Source: Thalassorhabdomicrobium marinisediminis
GTDB lineage: Bacteria; Pseudomonadota; Alphaproteobacteria; Rhodobacterales; Rhodobacteraceae
Assembly (NCBI RefSeq): GCF_003072065.1
Contig: NZ_QCYG01000002.1
Location: 124,001-188,000 of the forward strand
Direction of reading: 5' to 3'
DNA length: 64,000 nucleotides
The notes under the pieces were generated by a model. That model was not told where the DNA came from. It ran no database searches and worked only from the letters and a program-made list of their open reading frames with translations. Of this stretch, positions 1,977-9,338 are shown piece after piece (positions within the stretch are counted from its first letter, which is position 1; each line of letters begins with the position of its first letter). The translations under genes and the position numbers were made by a program.

Positions 1977-2630
1977 TCAGCCTTCGCGCAGGGCGCTGAC
2001 GTCCGAGGCCAGCACCGCGACGCCGCCTTCCAGCAACAGGACCGACGCGCCGTTCTCGCTGCGGACCTCCTGCACGCGGGCATAGACGTCCGCCACCTCA
2101 TCCAGCACCACGTTGCCGCCGGAGTGGCTCTCGACGCGGAAGGTATAAACGCCGGTGGGCAGCGGATTGCCGGCGCTGTCCACGCCGGCCCAGTCCACAG
2201 GCTCGGCCGATTTGGCGATTTCCATGCGCTGCACCTCGATGCCGTCCGCGTCCAGCACCACCAGTTCGACCTTGTCGGCGATGGCGGCGGGATTGGGCGC
2301 GATGGTGATCGGGCTGCCGTCGAAATACGCGGGGGCGGCGGCGCGGGCCTCTTTCCCGACCCAATCGGCCATCTGCGCCATGCCGGTCGTGTTCATCTGC
2401 ACCATGAGCGAGGACAGAAGGTCATTGGTCAGCACCTGCTGCTCGACGCCGGAAAACGTCGCCAGTTGCTGGGCATAGTCCGAGGCATCGGTCGGGTTCA
2501 GGGGGTCCTGATTCTCCATCTGCACGGTGAGCATTTTCAGGAAGGTCTCGAAGTCCGAACTGATCACCGCCTCCGACGTTTCGGTGGTCGGCACGAACGA
2601 GGCGGCGGATGGGGTGCTTGCGATTTCCAT
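1977..2630 (-). CDS. flgD: FlgD, flagellar hook capping/assembly protein
   Basis: 217-residue hook-cap protein that scaffolds polymerisation of FlgE at the growing hook tip. The N-terminal third carries the FlgD hallmark in which FLKMLTVQMENQDPLNP is followed by an S-x-F-S-G-V-E-Q block; the middle contains a FLN-like beta region with the LPTGVYTFRVES element. The ATG at 2630 is chosen because the family N-terminus starts there, and the upstream extension would overlap fliK. It follows fliK by 13 bases on the same strand, so the pair forms an operon. The stop codon directly abuts the ubiB stop. Confidence 0.92.
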   Translation of the reverse strand: MEIASTPSAASFVPTTETSEAVISSDFETFLKMLTVQMENQDPLNPTDASDYAQQLATFSGVEQQVLTNDLLSSLMVQMNTTGMAQMADWVGKEARAAAPAYFDGSPITIAPNPAAIADKVELVVLDADGIEVQRMEIAKSAEPVDWAGVDSAGNPLPTGVYTFRVESHSGGNVVLDEVADVYARVQEVRSENGASVLLLEGGVAVLASDVSALREG

Positions 2631-2643
2631 GGGAAAGCTCCGG

Positions 2644-4650
2644 TCAGAGTTTGAGGTCCAGACCGCCCGTCGGGGCCGTCCGTGAAGGTGTGTTCGCGGG
2701 CATGTCGTCTGCGGCGGCAAGAGCGGGCGTGTTGCGGGTGGGCCGCTCATCCCCGTTCGGGGTGTCGCCCCCGGCCGAGGTGTCGCCGAAGGAGAAGGTC
2801 AGGGACGCGTGCCCCATGTCGCGGAACTCCTGAATGAGCTGGTCAAGATTGCGGCGCATCAGATCGGCGGTCTCCGGGCGCTCGGCCATGATCGTCATGG
2901 TGAGCCCCTGTTCGCCGGTGGTGAGGGTCATCCGGACGCGGCCCAACTCTTCGGGGTTGAGCGCGATCTCGGTGGTGCCGCCCGCCGCCGGCGGCATCGC
3001 CGAGGCAAGCTGCGTCGCGACCTTCGGAACGATCGCGCGGTCCATCATCGGGGCGCTGGCATGGGCAGAGGTCGAGGCAGTCTGCGCGGTTGGCGTGAGC
3101 ACAAGTCCGTCGGAGTCCAGTTGTCCGGGGGCGCTGTCGAAGGCGCCCAGTTCCAGGGGCGATAGGGACGGACCGAAACCGGTCGTCTCGAAACCCGTCG
3201 GCGTAGCAAGGTTCAGCGGCGCGGTTGAAGATACGGCTGTTGAAGACACGGTCGTGCGCACAGTGGGCGCGGTTTGCGGCAGGCCCAGCCGGGCCGGAAC
3301 AGGTTGATCGACGCGCGGCTTCGGTATCAAATTCGACGTAGCTTGCGGGGTGATTGGCTGCTCGTTTGGCAAAAAACCATTCTGCGTGATGTCCGGAGAA
3401 GCGGCTGGCGTCGGAGCGTCCGACTGGGTGAGGTGCGGTGCCTGTGGTCGCTGCCGGGTCTCGGGCAACGGGGTGACGGAACGGCGAGTCGCGCCGTCGG
3501 CCATCGTCGCCGGAGCGGGAGTCGCGTCTCTGTTTCGGGACGTGGGCCCCTGCCCTTCAACGCGGAAAGCGGTCATGGCCCGCGCGCCCTGTGATTGCCC
3601 CAGCGACCGCCCGTCCGGAAGGGATGGAAGCCGGCTCACAGGGGGCTGCGATTCGGGCGTGGGCGTCGGGGCTTTCGGGGTGGGCGCGGGTGCAGCCGGG
3701 CTTGTGAGCTGCGACGTATCGGAGCGCGGCAGTGCGGCGCTAAAGGCCGCCGACCTGTGCGCATCGCGGGGCTGGGTGGGGCGATCGCGCAGACTGACAC
3801 TGTCAGCGACTTTGCTGCCGATGGCCTGCTCGGCAAGACTGGGGCGGGGTCTGGCACTCTGCGGGTGCACGTCCGACGGCGACGCAGTCCGCCCGGCTGC
3901 GCGCGTCGATGCGGCAACGGGCGATTCGACCTGCGGACTGCTTAAAGGTGCGGTTGCGGGCGATGGTGGTGCAGGCACCGCCTTCGCTGTTTGCGATGGA
4001 ATCGTCACGGAATTTGCCTCCTTCCGCGCGGGGAGGGTTGCGTTTGCCCCCGGCTGCGAGCGGACGGGGGTAGTCTCCTGAAACTGCCCCTGCGGCGGGG
4101 CCGGTTCGGCGGCGCGCGACAGGGTCTGCGGCCCCTGGTCCACCGGAATCGGTTGGATTTGCGCCCTCTGATCCACCGGAGTCGGTTGGATCTGCGGGGC
4201 TGCTGCGGTCTGGTGTTGCGTCAGCGGCGCAAGCTCAGCCTTGGCCGGTTGCGGGAGCACGGGGGCCGCTGGGTCGGTGGACATACGCGGCATAAAGGCT
4301 GGCCCGTGCGGGGGCCGCGCCGGGGCGTCAGTGTCCGGGGCTTCATGGGCGGAGGCGGGACGGCTGTCGAGGCGCGTCTCGGCCGTTGGAACCGGCGCGC
4401 GCGCGGCCTCGGGCAAAGGGTCGGTGGCGTCGCCTTCGGCCTTGGGGGTCGGCGTCGGCACCTCACCCTCGGGGAGGGTCGGCAGCGCGGGAGCGGCGGG
4501 TGTTTCGGCGGCGATCTGGTCGCTCAGCACCTGCAGAAAGGGGATCTGATCCCCGGTCTCGGACGGTGCCGCCCGCCCTTGGGATGTGCCGGATTTCAGG
4601 CCTCCGGACAACAGGGACAAACCCGGGTCGGTATTTTCAAAAGGGAACAT
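2644..4650 (-). CDS. fliK: FliK-like flagellar hook-length control protein
   Basis: 668-residue secreted ruler protein that sets hook length and triggers the substrate switch of the flagellar export apparatus. Only the last ~110 residues are conserved: a segment with EIALNPEELGRVRMTL and a downstream F-R-D-M-G-H-A-S-L-T-F-S-F motif match the Flg_hook domain. The first ~520 residues are extremely Pro/Ala/Thr/Ser/Gln-rich with imperfect repeats (for example two copies of QIQPIPVDQ-like text), as is usual for the disordered ruler part. ATG at 4650 gives the usual short hydrophobic N-terminus; the 19-residue extension upstream is unlikely. It heads the fliK-flgD operon, divergent from the rod-binding gene. 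Confidence 0.88.
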   Translation of the reverse strand: MFPFENTDPGLSLLSGGLKSGTSQGRAAPSETGDQIPFLQVLSDQIAAETPAAPALPTLPEGEVPTPTPKAEGDATDPLPEAARAPVPTAETRLDSRPASAHEAPDTDAPARPPHGPAFMPRMSTDPAAPVLPQPAKAELAPLTQHQTAAAPQIQPTPVDQRAQIQPIPVDQGPQTLSRAAEPAPPQGQFQETTPVRSQPGANATLPARKEANSVTIPSQTAKAVPAPPSPATAPLSSPQVESPVAASTRAAGRTASPSDVHPQSARPRPSLAEQAIGSKVADSVSLRDRPTQPRDAHRSAAFSAALPRSDTSQLTSPAAPAPTPKAPTPTPESQPPVSRLPSLPDGRSLGQSQGARAMTAFRVEGQGPTSRNRDATPAPATMADGATRRSVTPLPETRQRPQAPHLTQSDAPTPAASPDITQNGFLPNEQPITPQATSNLIPKPRVDQPVPARLGLPQTAPTVRTTVSSTAVSSTAPLNLATPTGFETTGFGPSLSPLELGAFDSAPGQLDSDGLVLTPTAQTASTSAHASAPMMDRAIVPKVATQLASAMPPAAGGTTEIALNPEELGRVRMTLTTGEQGLTMTIMAERPETADLMRRNLDQLIQEFRDMGHASLTFSFGDTSAGGDTPNGDERPTRNTPALAAADDMPANTPSRTAPTGGLDLKL

Positions 4651-4762
4651 CGTCGGCTTCTCCGAGTCGCAAGGTTGCCTTTCTCTAGCGCCCAGATGCT
4701 TACCCAATCTTTACCGACACCGGCTAAAGATCGTGAAAATTGTCACGATCGGAGCATACGCT

Positions 4763-5059
4763 ATGAACATCGACTCGACACCATCGCTTAGCCCCTCCCC
4801 CCGGACGGGGGGAGACGACCCGGACCTTCGCGCCGCGCAGCTGATGAAGGTCGCACAGACCCTGGAAGCGCAATTCCTGTCGGAAATGTTGAAATCCGCA
4901 GGCGTCGGGCAGACGCCGGGCACCTTCGGCGGCGGCGCGGGAGAGGACCAGTTCGCGTCCTTCCTGCGCGATGAACAGGCCAAACAGATGACCGAGGCCG
5001 GCGGCATCGGTCTGGCGCAGGCGCTGTTCGAATCAATGATGGCGAAATCCGATGGGTAG
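4763..5059 (+). CDS. Rod-binding protein (FlgJ N-terminal-domain type)
   Basis: 98-residue protein consisting only of the FlgJ rod-binding domain, which helps assemble the flagellar rod in the periplasm. The block LRAAQLMKVAQTLEAQFL, then a Gly-rich linker, then DEQAKQMTEAGGIGLAQ match this family; the muramidase half found in enterobacterial FlgJ is absent, which is normal in alphaproteobacteria. The ATG at 4763 starts the conserved protein; the open frame extends upstream but into the fliK promoter region. It overlaps the next gene by 8 bases and is divergent from fliK. Confidence 0.85.
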   Translation: MNIDSTPSLSPSPRTGGDDPDLRAAQLMKVAQTLEAQFLSEMLKSAGVGQTPGTFGGGAGEDQFASFLRDEQAKQMTEAGGIGLAQALFESMMAKSDG

Positions 5060-5387
5060 CCGCCGGATTGACGGGTTCCTTGCCCTGCTCGAGGAAGAAC
5101 GCAGCCTGTTGCTGCGCGGTGATCTGCAAGCGCTTGGGGATCTGGCATCGCAGAAAGAGGCGCTGACGGAAACGCTGGAACAGGTGTCGAGCGCGGACCT
5201 CGGGCGGCTGTCGCGCGCGCTGGATCGCAACAAGTCCTTGCTGGCGGCGGCGCAAAGCGGGGTGGCCACGGTGCTTGAGACGTTACGCGCCCAGAAACAG
5301 GCGCGCCGGTCGCTGTCCACCTACGACCGCGCTGGGCGGCCCGCGACCATCGCCCGCACCAGCGGCGGCACCGAACGGCGGTTCTAG
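5052..5387 (+). CDS. FlgN-like flagellar export chaperone (putative)
   Basis: 111-residue, largely helical protein with heptad-like leucines between residues 8 and 85, matching in size and pattern the FlgN-type chaperones that hold hook-filament junction proteins before export. A basic C-terminal tail contains the STYDRAGRP string I associate with the Rhodobacterales version. It overlaps the rod-binding gene by 8 bases, so the two are translationally coupled. The assignment rests on context and helical pattern more than on a diagnostic motif, and it could be a different flagellar helper. It is the last intact flagellar gene before the deletion scar. Confidence 0.6.
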   Translation: MGSRRIDGFLALLEEERSLLLRGDLQALGDLASQKEALTETLEQVSSADLGRLSRALDRNKSLLAAAQSGVATVLETLRAQKQARRSLSTYDRAGRPATIARTSGGTERRF

Positions 5388-5597
5388 AAAATTGGACTCA
5401 AAGGCCATGGATATCGGATGCAGGCATTAAACCCCTGTTAGGGCTGTCGGGTCATGTTGGCCGGGCACCCAGCAACGGGTGGCGCCGACCGCAAAACCGG
5501 ATCGGCATTCGTCAGAAGGACGCCTCATCCAGCCTGTGCAGGGCTGGTTCATGAAATCCCGGCGCAAAAGCGCCCTTATCTATAGGACCCGAATTAT
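5388..5597 (+). other. Structured leader of a lost gene (probable flagellin-type 5' UTR)
   Basis: About 210 bases without a gene. It holds two clear hairpins (5529-5547 with a CCAGCC/GGCTGG stem, and 5561-5574 with GGCGC-AAAA-GCGCC) and ends in AGGACCCGAATTATG, a good ribosome-binding site and start codon at 5596. That ATG opens only eight codons before a stop, and its third codon already lies in the motB remnant of the other strand. The arrangement looks like the intact 5' leader of a highly expressed gene whose body was deleted. In this flagellar context a flagellin is the natural candidate, but that identity is inferred. Confidence 0.45.
5529..5547 (+). other. Hairpin in orphan leader
   Basis: Perfect 6-bp stem CCAGCC/GGCTGG with a seven-base loop, 49 bases before the orphan ATG at 5596. 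It is followed 13 bases later by a second hairpin (GGCGC-AAAA-GCGCC, 5561-5574). Such paired stems are typical of long stable mRNA leaders; there is no T-run to make either a convincing terminator. Confidence 0.5.
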
Positions 5598-5687
5598 GGC
5601 CACTTTCCATGCGCCACCGTGATGGCCGCCGCCTGCGACGACCTTCTTGCGTTTGATGATGACCGGCGCGTTTGATCGATCCGACAT
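5580..5687 (-). pseudogene. motB: motB remnant: first ~30 codons of the flagellar stator gene
   Basis: A minus-strand frame starts at ATG 5687 behind a GGGGGACGCT ribosome-binding site and encodes 35 residues. Residues 1-30 read as a MotB N-terminus: the PVIIKRKKV lysine-rich cytoplasmic stretch followed by GGGHHGGAWKVA, which in complete MotB leads directly into YADF and the proton-channel transmembrane helix. Here homology ends exactly after the Ala codon (near 5598), and five unrelated residues and a stop follow. No transmembrane helix or peptidoglycan-binding domain is present anywhere nearby, so the gene is truncated and cannot make a stator. The break coincides with the orphan ATG of the opposite-strand leader, marking a deletion junction. 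Confidence 0.82.
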
Positions 5688-5762: not shown

Positions 5763-6524
5763 CTAGGGCAAACGCTTAAAATACATCTCATCCGGGCCGC
5801 AGAACTCGACCAGATCGTAGCCCTTCTGGTCCATGAGTTGCTTGATCTCGGGCGTGCCCCTGTTGTTCTCGATCGCCCAGATTTTCACGTCATGACGCTC
5901 GAACGGGAAGCTTTGCAGGCAGGCCATCTCACCGCCTTCGATATCGAGAGAGATGAAATCCGGGTTCGGGATGTCCACGTGGTCCAACAGCGCCGACAGC
6001 GTCATCGTCTTGACCGTGATCAGGTTTTCCTTGTGGCGCTTGTCGCTGCGGACCCGTTGCAGCAAGGTCTTGTCGTAGCTGTCCACCAGACCGCTCATCT
6101 GGGTGTAGCCTTCGGTGATCTCGACGAACTCGGCTTCCCCCTCATCCAGGGCGATGGCGACCTCAAAACAGGGGCAGCGCCGGACGGTGCGGGCTTTCTC
6201 GATCTGCGTGCTGACCGGTTCGACCAGCGCGCCGGTCCAGCCGCGGTGGGTTTCCAGATAGAACGTGTTGGAGCCGGTGACCCCGTCATAGCCACCCACA
6301 TCGACGAAGGTGCCCCCGCGCATAGCCTTTGTCATCGTGTCGACAACGCGATCCTGCCCCGCCTGCGAGGTATAGGCATACAGCGGCGAGAGCATCTGCT
6401 GGATCTCGTGCAGTTGCCGCACGATGGGCGCCCGCGCGCGTGAGCGGTTGTCCTCAAGCTGGCGGGCCAGTTTTTTGGCTTCCTTGCGCAACAGGCGCTG
6501 CGCTTCTTTGACGTTCTCGCTCAT
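5763..6524 (-). CDS. FkbM family SAM-dependent methyltransferase
   Basis: 253-residue methyltransferase of the FkbM type, a family that O-methylates sugars or polyketides. An N-terminal charged helical stretch (~55 residues) precedes the catalytic fold; TFVDVGGYDGVTGSNT is the SAM-binding glycine loop, and FISLDIEGGE is the characteristic motif of the family. The ATG at 6524 overlaps the stop of the upstream DUF6165 gene by four bases (ATGA), so it is the last gene of a coupled unit with DUF6165 and the TPR protein. Its position beside flagellar genes and a glycosyltransferase-like protein suggests glycan methylation, but the substrate is unknown. Confidence 0.85.
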   Translation of the reverse strand: MSENVKEAQRLLRKEAKKLARQLEDNRSRARAPIVRQLHEIQQMLSPLYAYTSQAGQDRVVDTMTKAMRGGTFVDVGGYDGVTGSNTFYLETHRGWTGALVEPVSTQIEKARTVRRCPCFEVAIALDEGEAEFVEITEGYTQMSGLVDSYDKTLLQRVRSDKRHKENLITVKTMTLSALLDHVDIPNPDFISLDIEGGEMACLQSFPFERHDVKIWAIENNRGTPEIKQLMDQKGYDLVEFCGPDEMYFKRLP

Positions 6525-6925
6525 GTCTCTACCCCGTGGTCTTTGTAGGATTTTTCTTCGATCAGGGCGGACCCCAACAGCAGGTTGATTTTCTTCTTCA
6601 CCTCGGCGCGGCGGTCGTTGGTGACATAGACCGCGCGGGCAAGACGGATGAAGGTTTCTCCGAAATCCTTGGCCCGTTCGCAATCCCGAATGTCATCCTC
6701 GATCACCCAAAGGGCGGCGTTGATCTGATAGAGCTCCTCCCACAGGCCCTGCAACTTCTCACTGTCGGGGATCTGCGCCTGCGCTGTTTGCATCAGCGCC
6801 GCTTTTTCCACCTGCACGTTGGCGCGTTTGTCGGGATCGGTGATCCGTTCTTCTTTGAGGCGCAGGATCGTCAGCTTGTCGATCAACTCCCCCGGGGAGG
6901 TGGGCACGAGAATGTGGTCAGCCAT
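6521..6925 (-). CDS. DUF6165 family protein
   Basis: 134-residue cytoplasmic protein of unknown function. The N-terminal motif ILVPTSPGELIDKLTIL followed by a charged KEERI helix matches the DUF6165 family, whose members are usually found next to TPR and glycosyltransferase genes. The rest is predicted helical with many charged residues and no catalytic signature I can recognise. It overlaps both neighbours (8 bases with the TPR protein upstream, 4 bases with the FkbM gene downstream), so all three are translated together. Function in glycan assembly is inferred only from this company. Confidence 0.72.
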   Translation of the reverse strand: MADHILVPTSPGELIDKLTILRLKEERITDPDKRANVQVEKAALMQTAQAQIPDSEKLQGLWEELYQINAALWVIEDDIRDCERAKDFGETFIRLARAVYVTNDRRAEVKKKINLLLGSALIEEKSYKDHGVET

Positions 6926-8288
6926 GGGCTTTCGCTTCCCTTTCCAAAGCGGCATGGGCGGCGTCGAACACCGAAGCCCAGTCCTGCGGCGCGGCCTGCC
7001 GGCACAGCCGCATGGAGGGATACCATTTCGTGCCCCGCCCCGCATGGCGATAGACCCAGAAGGCATCCCAGTGCAGCAGGACCCATGTCGGCAGGCCAAG
7101 CGATCCGGCGATATGCGCGGTCGCCGTGTCGGATGTGATGATCAGGTCCATTTCGCGCATGGTGGCCGCCGCATCGGCAAAGTCGCGGTCGGTGCTGGCG
7201 GTGTCGATGATCAAGGCCGCGCTGCCGTCCTTTTCGTAGGCCTCAAGGAACGGGCCCTTGTAGAGCGAGAAGAGCTGCACGTTGGGAATCCGCGCCATGG
7301 GCAGAAAGTCCCGATGGGTGAAAGAGCGGAAGGAGTTGCCCTTGTAGGTGGCCGAGCCGGACCACACGACGCCCACTTTGAACATATCCTGATGGTGCGC
7401 GGTGAAGCCTTGCGCCCGTGCGACGGAATCGGGCGGCACGGTAAGGGTCGTGGGGGGCGGGATTTCGCCCCGGTCTTTGGGGCCGATCACCAGTTTCGGC
7501 AGGTCCATCAAGGTGATCCAGAGGTCGATCGGGTCGTCGCGATGGGCGGCGGGGCCGATCCAGTCGAGCCCTTCGATCCCGGACAAAAGGCGCGTCAGTG
7601 GCGGTTTGGCCACCAGCCGCACCCGCGCGCCGCGGGCGGCCAGAAGGGGAATGAACCGCACCAGCAACACCATGTCGCCGAACCCCTGTTCGGGCAGGAT
7701 CAGGATCGTCTTGCCGGCGACCTCGTCCCCATCGCGCCAGCGCGGGAAAGGCACGTTGAGCGGTTCAAGCTCGCCGGTCCTCCAGCGGGCGTCGTAGTTG
7801 CGAAACGCCGCGCCATACTGCCCGGCCCCCAGTTGCGCGAAGGCCAGTTGCAGCTGGATCTCGGGCTCTTGCGGGTAGGTTTCGACCAGCGGAGTAAGGT
7901 AATCGATGGCCTTCTGGTATTCTCCCATCCCGCGATAGCAGCGCCCGATCATCGCGTGATGCATCAGGTGGTTCGGGTTGAGCGCGAGGGATTTCTTGCG
8001 CAGCTTGATCGAGCGTTCATAGCCGCCCAGATCCGACAGGATATTCGCGTAATTGTTCAGCACGCCTTCCTGATCGGGGGCGAGGGCATAGGCCCGCTCT
8101 TGGGCGATGAGGGCCATATCGTGCTGTTCGCGGGTGCGGTAAAGCGCGCCTAGGTTGGTCCAAATGCCTGCATCGTCCGGATACCGCGCAAGGTAGCGGG
8201 CATAGGCCTGCAACGCGGCGTCAAGCTGGCCGGCCTTGTGCCTGTCGACCGCGATCCTGCGGGCGGTGGCCCGATCCGGCGTGGTCAT
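6918..8288 (-). CDS. TPR protein with C-terminal glycosyltransferase-like domain
   Basis: 456 residues. The first ~160 form tetratricopeptide repeats (pattern W-x2-LG-x2-Y, then N-x-A-N-I-L, then G-x-C-Y-R-G-M-G-E-Y). The remaining part resembles a GT-B fold of the ADP-heptose/GT41-like kind: LPEQGFGDMVLLVRFIP near residue 200 corresponds to the phosphate-binding loop, and DLIITSDTATAHIAGSLG near residue 390 to the donor-binding C-terminal half. Proteins with this architecture are common in roseobacter surface-glycan and flagellin-modification loci. It starts the coupled trio with DUF6165 and FkbM and begins 3 bases after the stop of the unknown gene upstream. No membrane segments are seen. 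Confidence 0.75.
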   Translation of the reverse strand: MTTPDRATARRIAVDRHKAGQLDAALQAYARYLARYPDDAGIWTNLGALYRTREQHDMALIAQERAYALAPDQEGVLNNYANILSDLGGYERSIKLRKKSLALNPNHLMHHAMIGRCYRGMGEYQKAIDYLTPLVETYPQEPEIQLQLAFAQLGAGQYGAAFRNYDARWRTGELEPLNVPFPRWRDGDEVAGKTILILPEQGFGDMVLLVRFIPLLAARGARVRLVAKPPLTRLLSGIEGLDWIGPAAHRDDPIDLWITLMDLPKLVIGPKDRGEIPPPTTLTVPPDSVARAQGFTAHHQDMFKVGVVWSGSATYKGNSFRSFTHRDFLPMARIPNVQLFSLYKGPFLEAYEKDGSAALIIDTASTDRDFADAAATMREMDLIITSDTATAHIAGSLGLPTWVLLHWDAFWVYRHAGRGTKWYPSMRLCRQAAPQDWASVFDAAHAALEREAKAHG

Positions 8289-8291
8289 GGG

Positions 8292-9080
8292 TCAGGACCT
8301 GTCGCGCTTGCGGGCGATGGGTTTCAGCAACGTCTCGGGGCGGCGTTCCTCGGCGGCCTCGAACAGGCTGAATGTCTGGTTGACGTAGTTCACGGCCCCG
8401 GAAATCAGGTCCATATAGTCCTGAAGCTCGGGCGTCAGCTCGGTCTCGGTGACGGTGATCGGGCGTTCGGGGGACTGTGTCTCGAACCCCATGTAGAACA
8501 GCGGATCGCCGCGTTTGATCTTGATCGGCTTGTCGGGCTCGTGCCACTCAAACGCCCACATCAGCGGGCGCGGCCAGACGTTGATCGGGAACCGGCCGCC
8601 AAAGATCGTACCGGGCAGCGGATCGCGATTGTAGTGCATGAAGGGGCTGACCTGACTGGCATAGACCGGCTCATCCGAGACGAAGACGTAAGGCAGCGAA
8701 AGCTGGATCGTCGGCACGCCCTTTGTGCGCCATTCGACTTCGTTGGTCAGGTGCAGCTTCTCGCCCAGTTTGTTGGCCCGGATCGCGGATTGGGTGCCCG
8801 CAAGGTTGCGCAGCATCGGCTTGCCCTGATCATCGCGGACAAAACCGATATGAATGTCGAACGGGCATTTCACCATGAAATAGCGACTTTCCATGTTGAT
8901 CACCGCCGGACAGCGTGAAGCCGATTTCGCATGTTCGCGGTTCATCTCGACCGAGCGGACCCGTTCGGGCGCGTCGTAGATCACGCCGCCCTTGGATTCG
9001 TTCAGGAACCAGCCGACCTGTACGGGGCCACGCCCGGCGTCGGTGTCACGGGTGTTTTCAAATGCCACTGAAAGCCGCAT
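8292..9080 (-). CDS. Conserved protein of unknown function
   Basis: 262-residue soluble protein that I do not recognise with certainty. It is rich in aromatic and beta-strand-like segments (for example WPRPLMWAFEW and GDPLFYMGFE), has no signal peptide or membrane helix, and ends in a basic tail. The mixture of buried aromatics and conserved-looking His/Asp residues suggests an all-beta cupin- or hydroxylase-like fold, but no metal-binding signature is clear. ATG at 9080 follows an AGAAGG ribosome-binding site; the 30-residue extension upstream is unlikely. It is the first gene of the cluster that continues through the TPR protein, DUF6165 and FkbM genes, with only 3 bases to the next gene. 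Confidence 0.6.
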   Translation of the reverse strand: MRLSVAFENTRDTDAGRGPVQVGWFLNESKGGVIYDAPERVRSVEMNREHAKSASRCPAVINMESRYFMVKCPFDIHIGFVRDDQGKPMLRNLAGTQSAIRANKLGEKLHLTNEVEWRTKGVPTIQLSLPYVFVSDEPVYASQVSPFMHYNRDPLPGTIFGGRFPINVWPRPLMWAFEWHEPDKPIKIKRGDPLFYMGFETQSPERPITVTETELTPELQDYMDLISGAVNYVNQTFSLFEAAEERRPETLLKPIARKRDRS

Positions 9081-9338
9081 GGCCTTCTCCATCAAATTGT
9101 TTGCGGCGATAGAACCGTAAGCCCGCCGGCAAGTCAAAGCCACCGTGAGCGTTTTGCGTGGCGGTCTCATTGCCGTAGCGGGGCAGGACGGGGGCAGCCC
9201 GCCGGGCGACGCCGGTGGTTGCGTGACCTAGGATGCTCCGGATGTGCTCTCAGGTTGGTGAGGTTGCTGTCATAAACTGGTAAAACACCGTTCCGGCCCC
9301 ATATTGTGACCCGTAATAATGAATTGGGGGACTGACCT

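Follow-up and report, generated by a model that had tools for sequence, protein, structure and literature searches.

The window, that is the whole stretch of 64,000 nucleotides that was analysed, certainly carries a large deletion, in which the first 30 codons of motB have been joined to the start of the flagellin gene fliC and the flagellar genes that lie between them in relatives have been lost. The same junction was found, to within 1 nt, in a total of 59 Rhodobacteraceae genomes. The sequence comparisons strongly support that the fla1 flagellar cluster was lost recurrently at one junction. The initial annotation had read the locus as the scar of a flagellar-cluster deletion; the deletion is real, but it is not a private accident, as the genomes with the same join are scattered over the tree.

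Extent of the deletion and structure of the junction

The interval between flgN and the FkbM-type methyltransferase gene was compared within the genus. It holds 27.3-27.7 kb of flagellar genes in G003, G016, G011 and G001 as compared to 375 bp in the window. The comparison with G003 indicated that the part excised from the lineage of the window runs from motB codon 31 through the start of fliC and comprises ~26.9 kb with 31 genes and most of motB. The suggestion of the initial annotation that a large flagellar segment was lost and orphan genes were left is thereby confirmed and sized against four relatives. The G003 interval contains 32 genes with motB included, of which 31 were scanned with Pfam and flgH, split over two loci, was left out. 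The scan gave matches for 26 of the 31 genes, 25 of them to flagellar or export families and one to MgtE_N. The families matched were MotB, the rod/hook proteins, FlgK, FlgI, FliP, FliN, FliF, FliL, MotA, FlhA, FliR, FlhB, FlgA, FliQ, FliE, the FliI-type ATPase, DUF1217, FlbT, FlaF and flagellin. The names of the five unmatched genes (fliH, fliJ and the like) and the assignment of FlgB/C/E/F/G/L are probable ones, read from gene order and sequence. No recombinase was seen among the 26 Pfam-matched genes of the 31 scanned.

The genome-wide search, which covered the check for flagellin and further motB proposed earlier, revealed no flagellin, no further MotB and also no FlhA in the genome of the window. 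Some FlhA is present in 17 of the 19 genomes of the genus group, being of a divergent type in three of them. As both flagellin and FlhA are missing, the strain is predicted to be non-motile.

The minus-strand frame at 5580-5687 has 35 codons and reads MSDRSNAPVIIKRKKVVAGGGHHGGAWKVA-IIRVL*. Its match to MotB in the search of the genus-group genomes (E 1.9e-13) is beyond chance, and the purine-rich stretch GGGGGA lies upstream of the start codon, in accordance with the earlier description of about 30 intact MotB codons with a ribosome-binding site. The loss of the channel helix and of everything behind it was also corroborated: the DNA past codon 30 is not motB but the antisense of the fliC leader, and its alignment with four relatives extends as far as the AT of the fliC ATG. 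Two-sided alignment with the four intact relatives placed the breakpoint at 5597|5598, where G5598 is assignable to either side, so that the two ends have at most 1 base in common. The fliC leader with its hairpin and Shine-Dalgarno sequence reaches the AT of the fliC ATG at 5596-5597, and from 5598 the antisense of motB codon 30 and of the earlier codons follows. The frame was also checked as a functional MotB; it ends at residue 35 and has no Pfam match, while the full MotB of G003 matches PF13677 at 13-65. Judged from its sequence, the stub is without the transmembrane plug and the domain behind the plug. On the plus strand the join restores the fliC start codon and opens an 8-codon frame, MATFHAPP (5596-5622), behind the fliC Shine-Dalgarno sequence; the same restored start and 8-codon frame were observed in scars with GCC as codon 30.

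The order of the fla1 flanks is kept in the window, with flgD, fliK, the flgJ-like gene and flgN on one side and the 5' end of motB with the FkbM gene on the other. The neighbours named in the initial annotation (fliK, flgD, the rod-binding and FlgN-like genes) are open frames with Pfam matches (Table 1). Pfam matches upstream of the motB stub identified the FkbM-type methyltransferase, a DUF6165 gene and a TPR gene. Together with an unknown 292-aa protein these form a conserved block (5763-9170, minus strand), which survives the deletion and stands upstream of motB in the same-genus genomes that were read. The block is possibly linked to flagellin modification.

Table 1. Coordinates of the features at the deletion locus (positions within the window)
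Feature	Position	Strand	Basis
motB stub, codons 1-30	5598..5687	-	97% identity to residues 1-30 of the 272-aa MotB of G003; good match ends at codon 30
Deletion junction: AT of lost fliC start codon + antisense motB codon 30	5597..5598	.	both sides aligned with four intact relatives; join shared by 59 genomes
5' leader and promoter region of lost fliC	5388..5597	+	alignable to the flgN-fliC spacer of relatives; placed among Octadecabacter leaders with 99/97 and 99/96 support
CtrA-like box TTAA-N7-TTAG in fliC leader, putative	5427..5441	+	pattern match
Hairpin GGCGC-AAAA-GCGCC ahead of lost fliC start	5561..5574	+	read in sequence; similar hairpins in intact leaders
Shine-Dalgarno AGGA of lost fliC	5584..5587	+	read in sequence
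FlgN-like gene, intact frame	5052..5387	+	PF05130, E 4.8e-7
Rod-binding (FlgJ-like) gene, intact frame; start probably further in	4586..5059	+	PF10135, E 1e-10
fliK, intact frame	2644..4707	-	PF02120, E 3.9e-16
flgD, intact frame; start probably near 2630	1977..2750	-	PF03963, E 2.6e-17; alignment to G003 FlgD begins at 2630
FkbM-type methyltransferase gene, right flank of deletion	5763..6683	-	PF05050; directly upstream of intact motB in relatives

Occurrence of the scar and of other fla1 losses

The 19 genomes of the genus group were searched for MotB, which is near-full-length in 15, missing in two (G007 and G012, both incomplete) and present as the stub only in the window and G014. The latter, probably Octadecabacter arcticus, has the same junction as the window, and so does G024 from another genus. 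A genome collection of 84,980 species by its own description was then scanned with a degenerate junction pattern. The scan gave 69 stretches, comprising 49 scars, 18 gammaproteobacterial matches, which were dropped as intact MotB with a natural Met at 31, and two unrelated matches dropped before counting. The 49 pattern-found scars come from Loktanella, Roseovarius, Roseivivax, Celeribacter, Roseibacterium, Marivivens, Wenxinia, Maritimibacter, Nereida, Shimia, Sulfitobacter and others. The ten genomes added to these are the window, G014, G075, G089, G178, G186, G245, G274, G277 and G289; eight further G handles were judged by identical sequence to be repeats of genomes among the 49 and were counted once.

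A survey independent of the junction was made with residues 1-63 of the G003 MotB against 295 genomes, about one per genus, with G014 and G387 lying outside it. A MotB match was obtained in 245 genomes and none in 50; after the genomes with weak matches had been followed up individually, the 30-codon stub was found in 16 (G000, G024, G075, G084, G089, G171, G178, G186, G189, G192, G245, G262, G274, G277, G289 and G305). The query was the MotB protein, yet eight of these 16 genomes had turned up with the junction pattern as well. Codon 30 is followed by AT in all 16 stubs, and the fliC Shine-Dalgarno sequence stands ahead of the AT in ten of the ten read for this feature. Codon 30 ends in a base other than C in eight of the 16 genomes, and hence the fliC ATG is not restored there; either the join wobbles by at most one base or later mutation has occurred. 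With G122, G126, G141, G295 and G308 (two matches each) left out, the survey, in which decayed stubs are undetectable, gave no N-terminal MotB stub with another endpoint, and no full fla1-type motB was seen beside a stub in the genomes whose MotB matches were inspected. Three of the 16 (G024, G171 and G305) have an additional MotB of another type. The initial annotation had named relatives with the same short frame and a full motB elsewhere in an unbroken cluster as evidence against its reading; relatives with the short frame do exist, but, among the genomes inspected, without the unbroken cluster.

The neighbourhood of the scars, where readable, agrees with that in the window. Among the pattern-found scars, all 42 whose left flank exceeds 1.1 kb have FlgJ and all 19 whose left flank exceeds 4 kb have FlgD, L140 being represented by its copy G024; FlgN is often present, and FkbM lies on the right in part of the scars. 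The FlhA search in the 59 scar genomes gave no match in 44, some of which are incomplete MAGs, a divergent FlhA (36-42% identity) in 13, and a fla1-like FlhA elsewhere in two, namely the MAG G245 and Rubellimicrobium roseum. In Rubellimicrobium roseum (L126, L263) the MotB scar and a fla1 core, which extends from fliP to flhB and includes motA and flhA, lie on different contigs, and the search of this genome gave the stub and no full fla1-type MotB. The MAG G245 (L259:10480-10720, L260) combines the scar with 6.7 kb of a fla1 core, located on another contig of the same bin, perhaps representing a mixed population of intact and deleted strains.

Losses of other kinds were also observed. G006 (probably Octadecabacter antarcticus; L056:6818-9892), the nearest UbiB relative of G014, has a full motB with flgE, then flgK cut after ~222 residues, an IS21-type istA/istB pair, the remaining part of the fliC leader, and flgN. 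The genes between flgK and fliC were thus lost next to the IS21-type element. Such IS-mediated loss likewise removes flagellar genes, but the window junction is without a repeat and has different endpoints. The FlgD test of 20 of the 50 survey genomes without a MotB match showed FlgD to be absent in 14, weak only in two and of fla1 type in four. The latter four carry fliC, flaF, flbT and DUF1217 beside flgJ, with flgN too in three. In G095 and G147 the missing motB is probably an assembly gap because fliI, flgB and flgC follow. G153 (L285) and G077 (L287) show fliC-flaF-flbT-DUF1217 beside flgJ/flgN with neither fliI nor any further flagellar gene recognised in the stretch read and no MotB match in the genome, and may be rearranged or partly reduced by another route. 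In G070, of another genus, motB runs over two overlapping frames (G070:C3:112901-113088; L207/L194), which may reflect a frameshift in a motB gene that is otherwise present.

Tomasch et al. 2025 (PMC12363192), in the portion of the paper available to us, described the fla1 cluster of Rhodobacterales as strictly vertical with sporadic independent losses, and no flagellar cluster was present in 51 of 306 genomes. The order of the genes given there, between motB and fliI and between flbT and flgD, is also that of the fla1 locus studied here. The losses were published there as counts, whereas here they share a breakpoint; neither the available portion of that paper nor the available parts of the other literature searched describes a remnant or a shared breakpoint of fla1 loss. 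The accessible part of another report states that plasmid pOAR118 of Octadecabacter arcticus 238 carries flagellar clusters (PMC3646047).

Leftover genes and the deletion ends

The selective state of the leftover genes was analysed by dN/dS. The value for FlgD was 0.10-0.26 in scar-only pairs as compared to 0.04-0.05 in intact pairs, that for FlgN 0.06-0.08 against 0.07, and that for FlgJ 0.06 to 0.52 against 0.14 in one intact pair; two scar pairs (Celeribacter and L136/L167), which lack shared complete genes, gave no value, and Marivivens gave FlgJ only. Constraint on the leftovers persists, and that on FlgD may be relaxed. A stop within the match was found for FlgD in one of 33 scar matches (Nereida ignava) against none of 32 intact ones, and for FlgJ in one of 45 (Celeribacter) against two of 34. 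The Shine-Dalgarno sequence is kept in 44 of 49 scar leaders, where shuffling gave an expectation of 8.1, and in 22 of 32 intact leaders, two of these being mis-anchored. None of the 49 pattern-found scars has a stop within its 30 stub codons; the pattern itself partly fixes codons 25-30 and 23. The G014 stub has a stop at codon 25 and represents a decaying case. The tail after codon 30 varies among scars. As flgD and flgN are mostly intact with dN/dS below neutral, and the fliC Shine-Dalgarno sequence is kept, most scars appear to be young or renewed through recombination, unless the leftovers still have a function.

The two ends were examined for features that could set them. No direct repeat was found at the ends in 11 intact genomes, the identity being at most 0.35 at any offset from -8 to +8, and deletion by homologous recombination between direct repeats was rejected. 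IS-mediated deletion of the window was also rejected, as no IS lies at the junction and, among the loci read, only G006 has one there. The inner ends, both read inward, are slightly alike, with 11 of 400 random placements as good, which leaves the idea of terminal inverted repeats weak. In 57 intact motB genes, codons 30, 31, 34 and 35 show a tight synonymous choice, with z from -3.4 to -4.6, as opposed to codons 12-29, where the choice is free. These tight codons give a hint of a DNA site, although codons 10, 44, 47, 53, 56, 60 and 73, away from the break, are constrained about as tightly or more so in the same 57 genomes. The reciprocal junction pattern of an excised circle was absent from the viral contigs and the 327 loci examined, and the junction pattern itself was absent from the viral contigs. 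The motif TTAA-N7-TTAG in the leader, a candidate CtrA-like box, occurs in fewer scar leaders (6/49) than intact ones (10/32).

Two known processes were compared with the scar. Excision of genomic islands by integrases is site-specific and precise, with recurrent endpoints. The scar has such endpoints, but no att repeat or circle was found here and the recombinase search described above was negative. Deletions can also spread by transformation or gene transfer agents (GTAs), by which a short allele can replace a long locus in one step. The scar would fit such one-step replacement; no clear imported tract was seen here.

Phylogeny and origin of the shared junction

The distribution of the scar was plotted on a UbiB tree with 45 rows, of which 17 carry the scar, 27 are intact and 1 has another state. 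The scar state needs 13 changes, and supported branches force at least 11 of them. Its clustering does not exceed that of shuffled labels, which gave as low a count in 188 of 500 cases; the sample was drawn from two sources and shows pattern, not rate. The leader tree of 81 rows needs 20 changes against a shuffled mean of 25.3 (3/500 as low), with 8 forced, and the scars therefore cluster in it somewhat more than shuffles. The import of the window locus from another genus was rejected, as its leader and stub fall inside Octadecabacter (99/97 and 99/96 support). Scar leaders that group with intact genomes of their own lineage are those of G000 and G014 (inside Octadecabacter), L123/L150/L171 (with G311), L175 (with G322), L125 (with G083) and L170 (with G284). 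The related Roseovarius scars L123, L150 and L171 are more simply explained by one older event. Two leaders depart from the UbiB tree: L172 pairs with G317 and not with G196, and L164 stands apart from G044.

The G014 stub has an extra Ile codon in common with G006 and G017, both having full-length motB, and hence the G014 scar arose in its own lineage. It is identical to G017 at 86 of 93 nt, and the first 137 nt of its leader show 88% identity to G006, whose leader is then cut by the IS. Right up to the join, L175 matches the intact G322 at 39 of 40 leader positions and at each of the first 18 positions of motB. In 250-nt windows this pair has 79-92% identity outside a divergent fliK stretch, with the leader window, at 92%, standing out only modestly. 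The row representing L175 in the UbiB tree is incomplete and of odd composition. Stub codons 16-30 are nearest to the chosen intact relative in one of 12 pairs (L175) and nearer to another scar in 11, a comparison that takes the best of about 48 short sequences, carries little weight and gives no support to native origin. As to a foreign tract around the junction, the leaders are mostly native and the motB side is uninformative. Same endpoints are seen in independent events, where independence rests on the trees. On balance, though not beyond doubt, the trees and the native leaders and stubs speak for repeated in-situ events.

The reading that we put forward, to which we give an even chance, is that repeated, site-determined excision of fla1 in situ made the scar. 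The fliC start and motB codon 30/31 would be the sites at which a recombinase, a nuclease with end joining or an enzyme of this kind sets the two ends. Repetition of the excision in situ is supported by the scatter of the scar over the tree and, in the best-resolved cases, by a leader and stub native to the lineage. The scar lineages would be mostly young or short-lived, so that the leftovers are mostly not decayed; the cell would lose swimming and retain flgD, fliK, flgJ and flgN with no known use here. A stronger form, that Rhodobacteraceae own or meet a dedicated enzyme that joins the fliC start to motB codon 30 and discards 27 kb as an irreversible, recurrent switch to sessile life, is tentative and would rather be doubted. 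The main alternative to our reading, one ancient deletion allele, in which fla1 was cut once and the short allele was kept as a presence/absence polymorphism and spread by homologous recombination, for example in GTA particles, is likewise possible though somewhat improbable. GTA could carry the deletion but not the 27-kb cluster, and recombination with resident alleles would make the flanks look native. This alternative explains one junction with no enzyme and agrees with the random-like scatter of the scar label on the UbiB tree, with leftover flgD/flgN dN/dS below neutral (0.06-0.26 in scar-only pairs) and with the scar and fla1 core piece on separate contigs of the MAG G245; the motB side being nearer to other scars in 11 of 12 pairs is what recombination in conserved motB codons would give, and GTA genes are well conserved in Rhodobacterales according to the accessible part of PMC9836097. 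It has to face leaders that are native to within a few nt of the join in window/G001, L175/G322 and L123/G311, no strong import tract in L175/G322, and a third base of motB codon 30 that differs among scars as 1-nt jitter would make it, unless by later mutation; it also needs maintenance across the whole family.

Selection for a new job of the leftovers, be it the MotB 1-30 peptide, the fliC leader RNA or FlgD/FliK/FlgJ/FlgN, is improbable. The stop-free stub codons of the 49 pattern-found scars, FlgJ in 42/42 and FlgD in 19/19 scars with enough flank, FlgD and FlgN dN/dS well below 1 in scar-only pairs and Shine-Dalgarno sequences in 44/49 leaders against 8.1 expected by shuffle would suit it, but it leaves the many-fold making of the same join unexplained. 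The higher FlgD dN/dS in scar-only than in intact pairs, where constraint may be relaxed, the stops inside the Nereida ignava FlgD and one Celeribacter FlgJ (two intact FlgJ matches have them too), the variable tail and the stop at codon 25 in G014 also speak against it, and a similarity search can find conserved stubs only. That the window suffered an ordinary one-off deletion unrelated to the losses of relatives is very improbable: sporadic independent fla1 losses are on record in the part of PMC12363192 available to us, G006 lost fla1 otherwise in association with IS21, and G077 and G153 may be reduced another way, but the same two endpoints in 16/16 survey stubs refute it unless all are mis-assembled alike. 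Misassembly at the join can practically be dismissed because dozens of separately deposited genomes share it, among them G014, probably the O. arcticus genome that the accessible part of PMC3646047 gives as Sanger-finished; moreover, there is no repeat at the join.

Loss of flagella in roseobacters has been treated so far as ordinary independent gene loss. The scar at the same nucleotides in dozens of relatives suggests a site-determined or shared process and not ordinary random gene loss. The scar is a simple PCR marker and the question is therefore directly testable. If the losses share one breakpoint to the nucleotide, then either the excision is site-determined or a deletion allele has spread across the whole family. 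Either outcome, if true, would change the view of gene loss and of the swim-or-stick switch in these abundant marine bacteria.
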